From Mucilaginibacter sp. (GTDB lineage Bacteria; Bacteroidota; Bacteroidia; Sphingobacteriales; Sphingobacteriaceae), in NCBI RefSeq assembly GCF_028287845.1, contig NZ_JAQBOW010000163.1, positions 1 to 64,000 on the forward strand: 64,000 bases of DNA, given 5' to 3'. Each line of letters starts with the position of its first letter. Position 1 is the stretch's first letter. Below are positions 60,415 through 64,000 of the stretch, piece by piece. The notes below the pieces were generated by a model. It was given only the letters and a program-made list of their open reading frames with translations. It did not search any database and was not told the DNA's origin. The translations under genes were made by a program, and so were the position numbers.

Positions 60415-61977
60415 TCAATTAGTTATTAGCATTGTGTCAATAATCAGTTCTGCAACAAACTCTGCGTTGTTTATTCCGTAATTCAATTGATACTGATCGA
60501 TATAAAATAAATTCAATCTTTCCCGAACATTTTGCAGCCCAATGCCGGAATAATCTTTTTCGGGGTCATTATCAGTAGTGGGGAATACACTGTTGCGTAC
60601 TTCAAAATGTATTTGTTGTTGGTCGCAATTCAGATTAATTTTAATCCATGATTTTTCAAGTGGGTTTATACCATGCTTAAAAGCGTTTTCTACGAATGGA
60701 ATAAGCAGCATAGGTGCAATAAGATGCCTGCAATTGTCTTCATTAATATTTGTTTCAATTGTAATATTTTCGACTATCTGGATTCGCAATTTTTGAAGCG
60801 AAATGTAGTTATTCAGATAGGCTATCTCACTGCTCATCGGAATAAAATCAAGATGATTATCACCCAACATAAAGCGCATCATATCCCCAAGTTTTTGTAT
60901 GCCTTCTGCCGTATCTTTCGCTTTTTCTCGCAAAGCAGTGCCATATAAAGTATTTAATACGTTAAATAAAAAATGAGGGTTGATTTGTGAGCGCAGAAAC
61001 TGAAGATCAGCTTTTGATTTAGTTAGTGCTTTTGCTGCACCGCTTAATTGTAATATTTTATCTTTCCGCTGCTGATAAAGCAACCATGTAACAGGCGTTA
61101 CAACCAATAGTTGGAAACCCCAACAAAGGGGTAATAAATTACCATTGAAACCAACATGTGTAAATAATACCCAGAATACTGGCCCGATGAAAGTGAAAAT
61201 AAAAGTAATCACTATCAAGCGCCCAACAAATTGAAAATTGAAACTCACTACTTCTTTTGCCGGGAATAGCCAGTAAGTTAATGTAATATAAACTATAATG
61301 GTAGGGCTTACAAAAACAAAGTAAATAAGATAAATAAAGTCATTGTTTATAAGATGGAATGTCAATGCTAACGCCGGTACAGTGAAGAAGATGACAAGTA
61401 ATGTAGTAATTTGATTAGTAATTAAAATCCGAAACGGCTTTTTGGTGCCGGATTTATCTATTTTATAGATGATATACTCTCTTATGCTTATGTAAGTCAA
61501 ATAAATACCTACTAAAATAAGGGCCCTATCAAAGCCAAAAAATAAATGTTTCAATGGCTCATCGTTATAGCCGAACATGGCAAAAGAACCAAATCCGCCA
61601 TAATTAAAGTAATAAGGATGTGCATAGTATGTTGCTGCATTTACACCCAGGGCCAATAAATAGCTTAATGTAACCAGCTGTAAGGCAGCTAAAAAATAAG
61701 CAATGATTTTTGTTTTGTTTGATTTTAAAAATGTGGGAACAGTAATAAGATTCAGCCATAAATATATTAGGTAGAATACAAGTAAAACGCCTGCTTGAGG
61801 CAGCAGAACGTTGTTGCTGTAGCTAAAACGAATATGATTATCATTAAAAGCTTTAATACCTTGGTCTATAAGAAATTGTCCGGTAAATTTTTTATTATAT
61901 AATATATCGCCTATGGCTGTTAAGCCTACCAGCATTGAGACGATTATGATCTCGTGTTTTCTCCACCTAACCTTCAT
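60415..61977 (-). CDS. LytS-like sensor histidine kinase
   Basis: A 520-aa His_kinase-family (LytS/YpdA-type) sensor. Multiple membrane helices occur over about 1-310 (AGVLLVFYLIYLWLNLI; IAYFLAALQLVTLSYLLALG; LLVIFFTVPALALTFHLI). The kinase core starts with LRSQINPHFLFNVLNTLYGT (phospho-His in NPHFLFN, about 342) and has an HATPase with LLIPFVENAFKHGINP and YSGIGLQNVRERL. First gene of the leftward LytTR operon, the last operon before attR. Confidence 0.92.
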   Translation of the reverse strand: MKVRWRKHEIIIVSMLVGLTAIGDILYNKKFTGQFLIDQGIKAFNDNHIRFSYSNNVLLPQAGVLLVFYLIYLWLNLITVPTFLKSNKTKIIAYFLAALQLVTLSYLLALGVNAATYYAHPYYFNYGGFGSFAMFGYNDEPLKHLFFGFDRALILVGIYLTYISIREYIIYKIDKSGTKKPFRILITNQITTLLVIFFTVPALALTFHLINNDFIYLIYFVFVSPTIIVYITLTYWLFPAKEVVSFNFQFVGRLIVITFIFTFIGPVFWVLFTHVGFNGNLLPLCWGFQLLVVTPVTWLLYQQRKDKILQLSGAAKALTKSKADLQFLRSQINPHFLFNVLNTLYGTALREKAKDTAEGIQKLGDMMRFMLGDNHLDFIPMSSEIAYLNNYISLQKLRIQIVENITIETNINEDNCRHLIAPMLLIPFVENAFKHGINPLEKSWIKINLNCDQQQIHFEVRNSVFPTTDNDPEKDYSGIGLQNVRERLNLFYIDQYQLNYGINNAEFVAELIIDTMLITN

Positions 61978-62530: not shown

Positions 62531-63210
62531 TAAGCTGAAAAGTGCCTCTATAAGCTTGAAATGCAGTTTTTGAATCTATTAGTTAATAGAATTGAGTTGT
62601 CTGTCGTTCTGTTGAAATTACTTTCTGTTTCGTATTTTCTGTGTTATTATTAGGATTTGGCGCACTTTTTGGCACACTTTGGCGCAAAAAGTTATACTCA
62701 AACGTAGTGTAATTTGCCTTCAATTGAATGTCTGTCCATAAATAATATGTTTAAGTGAATAAATAATTATTAAGCCTACTCAGGTTTGGTGCGATCAAGT
62801 GCAAAAGGAAAAGATATAAATGGATAGTGCGTTGGCCTTGCGGGTTTATGCTCGGTAAGCTTTTGCACGCTTCGGAAGCACCAGTCCTAACTTAGCTGTT
62901 AATTATGTATTCTCCCCACTCATTTCAATCCAAGAAATATGAGATTTCTTACTTTATAGGCATGGTGTAAATCTTGGATAGCAATTCAAGAATATTGAAA
63001 TTTTAATGTTTATACCAGTAGATGAAACCCTGAATTGAATATCCAAAAAACATTCAAAATACTTTGTAATAGGGATAATAACTTTTTGGATATGATTATG
63101 GGTTTTATTGTGGGGCTTAGTTACAATCACTTCTTTATAAGGTAAAATACTTATGTGTAATATATTAAACCTATAAATTCTATAGAATTAGTATATTAAT
63201 TAAAAAACTC
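62531..63210. other. Chromosomal gene-free region
   Basis: About 680 bp with no supported gene. It includes an odd repeated string around 62659-62690 (GGCGCACTTTTTGGCACACT then TTGGCGCAAAAAG), which could be a relic of earlier insertions at this tRNA site. No more can be said. Confidence 0.4.
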
Positions 63211-63218
63211 TATATTTG
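63211..63218 (+). promoter_or_regulatory. Bacteroidota -7 promoter element
   Basis: TATATTTG exactly matches TAnnTTTG and lies 18 bp before the second ATG (63236) and 9 bp before the first (63227) of the leader ORF. A clear -33 TTTG is not seen. Confidence 0.55.
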
Positions 63219-63235
63219 CCTCATAAATGAAGTTT

Positions 63236-63319
63236 ATGAAAACACGTTTACATTTTTATGAGATAGCGGCAAAACCTGTTTGTATAACAACATTGCGTCC
63301 AATGTACTGTTGTTGCTGA
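63236..63319 (+). CDS. Short leader peptide ending in Cys-Cys-Cys
   Basis: A 27-aa ORF, MKTRLHFYEIAAKPVCIT and then TLRPMYCCC before the stop (30 aa if ATG 63227 is used). It starts right after a -7 promoter element and is followed by a strong hairpin and then the SusC-like gene, all on the same strand. Three terminal Cys codons (four Cys in 27 residues) suggest a ribosome-stalling or attenuation peptide sensing cysteine supply, as known for poly-Cys upstream ORFs in mycobacteria. Function here is inference. Confidence 0.55.
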   Translation: MKTRLHFYEIAAKPVCITTLRPMYCCC

Positions 63320-63445
63320 ACTTTTCCTTCAGCATAATTAGTTGTTTGCTAAACGCTGCAACAGTGATTATGCCATCCCAACACCCATTTATTGCTTACC
63401 ATACAACAGAACAGATATGACATAAATAATTGTGCTTAAATAAAA

Positions 63446-63472
63446 TTACCGGCAAGGAAGCCTTGCCGGTAA
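63446..63472 (+). promoter_or_regulatory. Strong hairpin in the SusC leader
   Basis: A 12-bp perfect stem TTACCGGCAAGG / CCTTGCCGGTAA with a 3-nt loop, 127 bp after the leader ORF and 94 bp before the SusC-like start. There is no T-run after it, so it is not a standard intrinsic terminator; it could be a Rho-independent attenuator variant, a processing site or a stability element. Confidence 0.65.
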
Positions 63473-63566
63473 GTACATGAAAGACCAGAGAGACTGCGAA
63501 TCACATACTGATCTTCATACAAGTTTTACTAACGAATTAATCATTAACATAAAACCAGTTAAATAT

Positions 63567-64000
63567 ATGGAAATATATAGACATTCCGTTTTTGGGAGTG
63601 GATCAAGATTTCTAAAATACCTATTCTTTTTGCTCTTTTTATTTATAATAATCAGTAGTACAGCCAAATCAGAAAGTCCTAAAAAATTACCCGGCAGGCA
63701 CTTTTTAAAGCAGTTAAACCCCAAAATAGATACTGCAAGAGATTATGAAGACAGGAACTTATCAGGCACTGTACTTGATGAAAACGGGCAAGGATTGCCG
63801 GGGGCGAGTATCAAGATAAAAGATGCCGGAACAGGCGTAACTACCGATAAGCAGGGTACTTTCCATTTACCAGCGCCGAACAATAATGCGACTATTGTAG
63901 TATCATTTATAGGTTACCGTCCACAGGAATTATCTATAAGAACCCACAAAAATCTTATCATCAGGCTTGAACCCGATCATAATATATTAAACGATGTGGT
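63567..64000 (+). CDS. SusC/RagA-type TonB-linked outer-membrane protein (partial)
   Basis: Start of a gene that runs off the window; about 144 residues are seen. It has a signal/anchor segment (FLKYLFFLLFLFIIISSTAK), a short linker and then a carboxypeptidase-D regulatory-like domain (LSGTVLDENGQGLPGASIKI; GTGVTTDKQGTFHL; VVSFIGYRPQELSI), the N-terminal extension of SusC/RagA receptors. The next residues (HNILNDVV) lead to the TonB-box/plug. It probably imports an oligosaccharide, peptide or, given the Cys-rich leader, a sulfur-containing nutrient. Chromosomal flank. Confidence 0.85.
   Translation, partial: MEIYRHSVFGSGSRFLKYLFFLLFLFIIISSTAKSESPKKLPGRHFLKQLNPKIDTARDYEDRNLSGTVLDENGQGLPGASIKIKDAGTGVTTDKQGTFHLPAPNNNATIVVSFIGYRPQELSIRTHKNLIIRLEPDHNILNDV

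Follow-up and report, generated by a model that had tools for sequence, protein, structure and literature searches.

A poly-cysteine leader upstream of SusCD-sulfatase operons in Mucilaginibacter, a probable cysteine-responsive attenuator

Why should a gene for an outer-membrane receptor of the SusC/RagA type be preceded by a short ORF that ends in three successive Cys codons? SusCD systems are usually seen as carbon-source receptors under the control of hybrid sensors or sigma/anti-sigma pairs. The arrangement lies near the 3′ end of the stretch of DNA that we analyzed, 64,000 nucleotides of a Mucilaginibacter sp. contig, which we call the window. A sequence-only reading of it had described a TAnnTTTG element, an ORF of 27 to 30 aa ending in CCC, a 12-bp hairpin, and a SusC/RagA gene, and had proposed a cysteine attenuator that governs uptake of a sulfur-related substrate. 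All four parts held, with the 27-codon form of the ORF the likelier one. Here we ask whether the Cys codons are conserved, which genes follow them, and how far the attenuator interpretation is supported.

The leader and the operon downstream of it

Table 1. Features of the leader region, with positions in the window
Feature	Position	Strand	Remarks
Two overlapping boxes 5′ of the promoter	63171-63194	+	Proposed regulator site; regulator inferred
Promoter element TATATTTG	63211-63218	+	Bacteroidota -7 type
Leader ORF MKTRLHFYEIAAKPVCITTLRPMYCCC	63236-63319	+	27 codons plus stop; translation inferred from sequence
Cys codon run TGT TGT TGC at leader end	63308-63316	+	Followed by TGA (ends at 63319)
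Spacer between leader stop and hairpin	63320-63445	+	Variable; C exceeds G in 38 of 41 leaders
Hairpin H1, TTACCGGCAAGG-AAG-CCTTGCCGGTAA	63446-63472	+	12 pairs; conserved, core ACCGGCAAGG-AAG-CCTTGCCGGT
Stem H2	63478-63517	+	Second conserved stem; loop AATCAC kept; covarying pairs
Conserved run AGTTTTACTAACGAA..AATCATTAACATAAAAC	63518-63566	+	Reaches the SusC start
SusC/RagA gene, 5′ part	63567-64000	+	Runs past the window end

The features of the locus are listed in Table 1. TAnnTTTG is a promoter motif of Bacteroidota; across the whole window, it was not rarer than chance (55 matches versus 89.5 expected). The leader reading frame is open from an ATG at 63227 (30 codons) or from one at 63236 (27 codons), and the shorter form is favored because only the second ATG is present in the orthologous operon described below. 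We place the start of SusC at 63567. Another ATG, at 63477, is in frame, but the orthologue has no equivalent of it and an in-frame stop intervenes there. Of the two boxes 5′ of the promoter, CTATAAATTCTATAG (63171-63185) fits the pattern CTA[TC]N7[AG]TAG exactly, and CTATAGAATTAGTAT (63180-63194) occupies the position that the box has in the relatives and deviates at its last base. Farther 5′ of the leader, the minus strand encodes a sensor histidine kinase (60415-61977; His_kinase domain), which adjoins an ORF that by eye resembles a response regulator.

Beyond the window end the operon reads SusC-SusD-sulfatase-FGE (contig C108, 63567-71788). The Sulfatase domain (E 7e-62) belongs to a protein of 784 aa, and the FGE-sulfatase domain (E 3.3e-84) to one of 385 aa. 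FGE-type enzymes activate sulfatases. Because the operon encodes both domains, it looks designed for the import and opening of sulfate esters, a role that is inferred and that fits the earlier prediction of a sulfur-related substrate. An orthologous operon, with a SusC 88% identical to that of the window, is present in Mucilaginibacter sp. RYN_330 (L032; a second entry, L142, is the same genome). Its leader, MKALLHLHKITAEPVCTATLQRMYCCC, aligns with that of the window without indels. Of the 27 positions, 12 differ as codons and 11 as residues, whereas each of the four Cys codons is the same in both, as is the stop.

Conservation of the leader within the genus

To survey the genus, 149 genomes were searched with a DNA query (63195-63560) that included the hairpin-to-SusC segment, and 75 places in 58 genomes matched. 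Apart from the window there were 74 places, of which we looked in full at 40, namely the top 43 without three; together with the window these gave 41 copies from 30 genomes. Of those 40, 39 matched only from query position 194 onward, that is, 3′ of the ORF. A poly-Cys ORF of 24 to 36 codons was nevertheless found in all 41 copies, including L155, L179, and L180. The count leaves out a strong place at a contig edge (G314:C164) and 31 weaker places; two further strong places, on 3-kb loci (L136 and L141), also have a poly-Cys ORF.

Under a strict test that required an ATG-initiated ORF of 10 to 60 aa with at least three Cys in its last nine residues, 41 of 41 genus copies passed, compared to a mean of 0.42 and a maximum of 2 over 50 rounds of dinucleotide shuffling. 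By the same test, none of the 450-nt regions upstream of 77 other SusC genes contained such an ORF (79 control loci were assembled, and two were dropped because their upstream DNA was too short). When the criterion was relaxed to CC anywhere in the last 12 residues, with three start codons allowed over 1 kb, 9 of the 79 control loci gave chance matches. The 41 copies are kin and not 41 independent events, and their ORF sequences are very different. The endings vary as well (MCCACCCC, MCCTCCCC, NCCMCCC, MCCYCCCW), with the Cys cluster near the end retained; the last nine codons of the leaders contain 143 TGT and 54 TGC. The sequences thus establish that the cluster of C-terminal Cys codons is the only well-conserved trait of the leader ORF. 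Conservation of the terminal Cys codons upstream of related receptors, on which the sequence-only reading depended, therefore held in 41 of 41 genus copies, with exceptions among distant copies and SusC relatives that are given below.

These counts bear on the simplest alternative, namely that the ORF is a chance reading frame over unrelated conserved sequence. In its favor, short ORFs are common, and when the peptide was used as a protein query against 201 family genomes, no relative was convincing. That search returned only weak matches besides the query itself; 30 loci were translated, and the 12 that were checked in context were mostly coding or unrelated sequence. Against it stand the 41 of 41 copies compared to 0 of 77 controls and the shuffle mean of 0.42, and these all but exclude it. 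A Cys-Cys ORF upstream of an O-acetylhomoserine sulfhydrylase-like gene (called by eye) was rejected as a leader, being a SAM-I riboswitch (L026 1384-1487).

The sequences 5′ of the ORF are also shared. The ATG lies 17 to 20 nt 3′ of TAnnTTTG in 32 of the 41 leaders, 25 to 27 nt in five, 9 to 10 nt in three, and 38 nt in one doubtful leader. Of the 41 leaders, 37 have the box CTA[TC]N7[AG]TAG no more than 95 nt 5′ of the ATG, and none of the 77 control SusC upstream regions (450 nt) has it. It may point to a second, transcriptional layer of control, for which the regulator is inferred. As a genome-wide mark of a regulon the box supports no claim, with six matches in the window's own genome compared to seven for a control pattern; one of the six is the poly-Cys leader on contig C132 described below.

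On the 3′ side, H1 and H2 form the most conserved part of the leader region. H1 hardly varies within the genus, and H2 covaries: the two helices together have 6 covarying pairs with 27 cells changed on both sides, compared to 2.0 and 7.6 in shuffles and to at most 3 pairs and 6 cells in slid versions of the structure. A caveat is that this alignment was also the source of the structure. The 12-bp hairpin of the sequence-only reading is real, and a scan found no plus-strand intrinsic terminator at it, the T-run following the hairpin on the minus strand only. Read on that strand (63446-63472), H1 and its T-run resemble the terminator of an antisense transcript.

Folding of nine subgroups of leaders gave, in several, a stem just 5′ of the Cys run and, in several, one in which the Cys codons pair with sequence 3′ of the stop. 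With the 40 nt 3′ of the stop, the Cys codons paired only slightly better than in shuffles (mean z -0.49, p<0.05 in 4 of 41). Masking of the SusC start by the Cys codons, the one form of translational attenuation covered here, is not supported, as this pairing was no better than in shuffles (mean z 0.21, p<0.05 in 0 of 41). The spacer contains 19.4% C and 12.5% G, compared to 15.3% and 14.1% in the last 150 nt of the control upstream regions. Such an excess of C over G is compatible with a Rho site, a possibility that it does not demonstrate.

The genes that follow the leader were tabulated for 37 copies by blastp to the window proteins, each run being read to the first gene on the opposite strand (L155, L179, and L180 were excluded). 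Sulfatase relatives lie downstream in 23 of the 37, and 17 of these have FGE relatives too. Eight copies precede a more distant SusC (35-37% identity), and six have neither sulfatase relatives nor the more distant SusC. In five copies the run consists of SusCD and a fatty-acid-hydroxylase-like gene without a sulfatase, and in one (L164) it leaves the contig. The hydroxylase-like assignment rests on resemblance to the L158 gene, the sole one that was domain-tested, and the available sequence of one of the five (L149) ends within the run. Each of the five genomes concerned (G249, G254, G243, G274, and G255) has a second leader copy before sulfatases (L151, L178, L147, L152, and L159). The 23 include two copies without a whole SusC gene: at L178 (G254) the sulfatase gene is directly 3′ of the leader, without SusCD, and at L152 (G274) the SusC is truncated and the leader is then followed by a hydroxylase-like gene and sulfatases. 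A gene with a fatty-acid-hydroxylase domain (L158 6648-7607 and similar genes) recurs in SusCD-sulfatase operons.

Six of the eight copies that precede the more distant SusC (L168, L169, L170, L172, L175, and L176) have a common long string of genes, as judged by length and N terminus; L173 has a shorter string, and the further genes of the eighth, L161, are unclassified. The one copy of the eight tested for sulfite dehydrogenase, L175, encodes such an enzyme of the SoxC type (TIGR04555, 455.7 bits; cut-off 420) as well as a cytochrome c domain. Outside the genus, a comparable operon (L218) encodes a protein with a Peptidase_S51 domain and one that resembles the putative sulfate exporter YeiH, the latter at 97.4 bits and below the cut-off of 232.6.

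A second alternative is that a Cys-rich micropeptide with a function of its own, as a metal carrier or the precursor of a modified peptide, is the product of the ORF, which is co-transcribed incidentally. Short Cys-rich peptides can indeed serve as precursors of this kind. We regard this as very unlikely, since the length (24 to 36 codons) and the sequence outside the Cys cluster vary freely and no peptide-modifying enzyme was recognized by eye among the downstream genes in a non-systematic look.

Leaders beyond the genus and upstream of other genes

To extend the search, an RNA covariance model (R1) was built from the 3′ element. Among 301 family genomes R1 matched in 47, which represent 7 of 25 genera, and we followed 19 of the 28 non-genus places as well as a second place in the window's own genome. 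Twelve of the 19 pass the strict Cys test, and a further five (L213, L220, L221, L230, and L231) have two Cys among the last nine residues, so that 17 reach two or more. From an ATG, L222 reads only MCCCN (5 codons), or from a GTG 12 aa, and the ORF of L215 has a single Cys. Four more diverged places (L228-L231) have a changed hairpin sequence that still forms a hairpin by eye; in these the distance from the ORF end to the matched element is 16 to 26 nt, and in L227 it is 43 nt. The leader family is real and widespread in Sphingobacteriaceae.

A class-wide R1 search matched 5 of 295 genomes, and the three of these outside the family are weak (E 5.5e-4 to 0.0063). Among 80 named SusC loci the only strong match was L032, with weak ones (E 0.027 to 0.47) on the L032 minus strand and at L088 and L057; the SusC-sulfatase operons in L034, L035, L041, and L077 (Pedobacter) lack the leader. 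A class-wide protein search with the more distant SusC, that of the second operon type, provided loci for 30 matches, seven of them at ≥46% identity. Among these seven, Cys-ending ORFs precede all three genes from the same family (L315, CCCCCCA; L318, CMCMC; L320, CC) and one of four from other families (L316, MNCCNILHSDCCCCK, followed by what by eye is a GC-rich hairpin); L314 (66% identity), L317, and L319 have no Cys-ending ORF. With a looser two-Cys filter, only L326 and L337 passed among the 23 more distant matches, in both cases through 5-aa ORFs, and L337 additionally has MKTMQTCCFK.

Poly-Cys leaders also precede genes of other types. In the window's own genome the pattern TGYTGYTGYTRA has 53 matches, compared to 9 for a control pattern. 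Eight pass a short-ORF filter (frame of at most 75 codons, with an ATG), and three of these we take as leaders, those of the window, contig C132, and contig C24; the other five were judged on context to be chance matches. On C132 (13358-14188, L272) the poly-Cys leader MVHSKIIIFLYILSGRSDLGIRMCYCCC is followed by an AhpC/TSA-family gene. On C24 (2627-7476, L290) a poly-Cys leader precedes a porin gene and a PstSCAB-like operon without phoU; no TAnnTTTG lies within 60 nt before this leader's ATG.

The C24 permeases match NCBIfam phosphate permeases, PstC and PstA above the cut-offs, and homology alone would name this transporter a phosphate transporter. The genome has a separate pstSCAB operon on contig C118, followed by a PhoU-like protein (read by eye), which makes the C24 copy a paralogue. 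Because of this separate operon, we predict, as a possibility only, that the paralogue carries sulfate. No poly-Cys ORF was found in the stretch examined upstream of the CysH gene of the same genome, whose operon start may lie outside that stretch.

Relatives of the porin and AhpC/TSA loci were collected by protein searches in 121 family genomes each. With the own copies counted, poly-Cys leaders stand before 3 of 4 porin/PstSCAB-like genes and before 10 of 12 AhpC/TSA genes, and no Cys run was found at L293, L302, and L300. Five of these 13 leaders have their ORF stop only 58 to 70 nt from the gene match. At L292 the complementary sequence AACAACAA precedes the porin start, and some leaders have spaced Cys motifs, such as MCCSRMCNGACCC before AhpC/TSA genes.

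The spaced motifs could instead be taken to indicate that a Cys-rich nascent peptide senses a metal or the thiol/redox state in the manner of an arrest peptide, with the supply for Cys codons irrelevant. A nascent-protein copper sensor reported in a different bacterium provides a precedent (PMC9973294). However, the downstream genes indicate sulfur and not metals, the spacing of the Cys residues differs among leaders (CCC, CCACCCC, CCTCCC) while the cluster near the end is kept, and the remainder of the peptide is unconserved. We consider this alternative unlikely.

Still less likely, in our judgment, is that the H1/H2 stems are the regulator, acted on by a protein, an sRNA, or an antisense RNA, and that the poly-Cys ORF is secondary. 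Supporting such a view, H1/H2 is the most conserved part of the leader, H2 covaries, and H1 resembles a terminator when read on the minus strand, a feature that an antisense RNA would require. In addition, at the second place in the window's own genome (C144 20492-20619, L212), a different SusC gene has an H1/H2-like element 5′ of it but no poly-Cys ORF. Because of this copy, H1/H2 may serve SusC genes generally, as a wider SusC leader element. However, the view leaves unexplained why every one of the 41 genus copies has a Cys run and why poly-Cys ORFs precede the PstSCAB-like and AhpC/TSA genes, in 5 of 13 cases with only 58 to 70 nt between stop and gene match.

A cysteine-responsive attenuator as the proposed mechanism

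The reading that we prefer is that the leader is a cysteine-responsive leader-peptide attenuator for sulfur acquisition. We consider it likely because the locus combines a conserved promoter, an ORF with a Cys cluster, two conserved RNA stems, and a sulfur-linked uptake operon. These parts, their conservation, and the gene content are shown by sequence; the response to cysteine is inferred, without experimental data. The attenuator proposed by the sequence-only reading is thus supported by conservation and gene content, namely the sulfatase and FGE genes, the conserved Cys run, and the poly-Cys leaders before other genes with a plausible link to sulfur or thiols. Three criteria for an attenuator are fulfilled. 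A short ORF lies between the promoter and the first structural gene, and the cluster of regulating codons is kept beyond the rest of the peptide; both are shown. The downstream genes supply the amino acid, although for cysteine this holds only at one remove and by inference.

In the mechanism that we propose, plentiful charged tRNA-Cys would allow the ribosome to complete the leader ORF, upon which the Cys codons would pair with sequence 3′ of the stop and expression of the operon would be kept low. When cysteine is short, the ribosome would stall on the Cys codons and prevent this folding, SusCD, the sulfatase, and the formylglycine-generating enzyme would be made, and sulfate esters would be imported and opened. 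The repressed step might be Rho-dependent termination in the spacer or SusC translation via H1/H2. Translation of the ORF, stalling, and the relief of repression are all inferred.

A similar switch appears likely to serve other operons in Sphingobacteriaceae, again with the response inferred. A bolder reading, toward which the balance of evidence leans only slightly, is that Sphingobacteriaceae, and perhaps more Bacteroidota, have a cysteine regulon that is sensed by translation. Under it, poly-Cys leaders unrelated to one another would put SusCD/sulfatase, sulfite-dehydrogenase SusCD, PstSCAB-like, and AhpC/TSA genes under one cysteine signal, would have arisen independently of those of mycobacteria, and would have been joined by the H1/H2 platform in the SusC class. 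If the leader does sense cysteine, some SusCD systems are sulfur-scavenging systems and the leader is a sequence mark by which to find them, and functions become assignable to unannotated transporters such as the PstSCAB-like operon. H1/H2 would be a new conserved RNA element, the target class (SusCD/sulfatase) would also be new for poly-Cys attenuators, and the presence of such attenuators in a second phylum would be a testable case of convergence.

We found no report of poly-Cys leaders in Bacteroidota in the open-access literature searched, most subscription papers being outside that scope. Short ORFs in long 5′ UTRs have been described in Bacteroides thetaiotaomicron (PMC7366714). Cis-acting control of sulfur genes is present in the same family in the form of the SAM-I riboswitch (Rfam RF00162; L026), whereas the window leader (L001) matches no Rfam family at E ≤1. 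The nascent exported protein that senses copper (PMC9973294; the organism is reportedly Bordetella and the target a TonB-dependent receptor) is comparable to the SusC leaders, as interpreted here, in that a protein still being made from an upstream gene exerts control over translation. There, however, copper acts via the exported nascent protein, whereas here sulfur genes follow a codon run.

Closer parallels are the leader-peptide attenuators of the trp, his, and ilv type. Leader-peptide attenuation has also been proposed for amino-acid operons of Flavobacterium psychrophilum (PMC9723704). As in the trp, his, and ilv type, the SusC leaders have a short ORF that ends in a series of regulatory codons and, in several subgroups, predicted alternative hairpins around those codons, for which the pairing statistics are weak. 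Unlike them, the SusC leaders govern the capture of an external nutrient and not amino-acid synthesis, and by scan they have no plus-strand intrinsic terminator.

The closest known systems are mycobacterial. There, leaderless poly-Cys short ORFs are described as cysteine-responsive attenuators (Canestrari et al. 2020, cited in PMC13236596 and PMC9094748), are linked to cysteine genes and cysteine availability (PMC13236596, PMC9094748), and attenuate translation of the downstream gene (PMC13236596). Both groups consist of a short ORF with a Cys codon run in the 5′ leader of an operon. The SusC leaders differ in that they are probably not leaderless, the ATG lying 17 to 20 nt past the -7 element in 32 of 41; this verdict was reached without a measured transcription start, and the three leaders at 9 to 10 nt could be near-leaderless. 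They differ further in their target, outer-membrane SusCD and sulfatase, in the long leader with conserved H1/H2, in the lack of support for base pairing between Cys codons and gene start, and in phylum. Homology between the poly-Cys leaders of Bacteroidota and those of mycobacteria is not shown; we infer that the two are analogous and that they likely arose by convergence.
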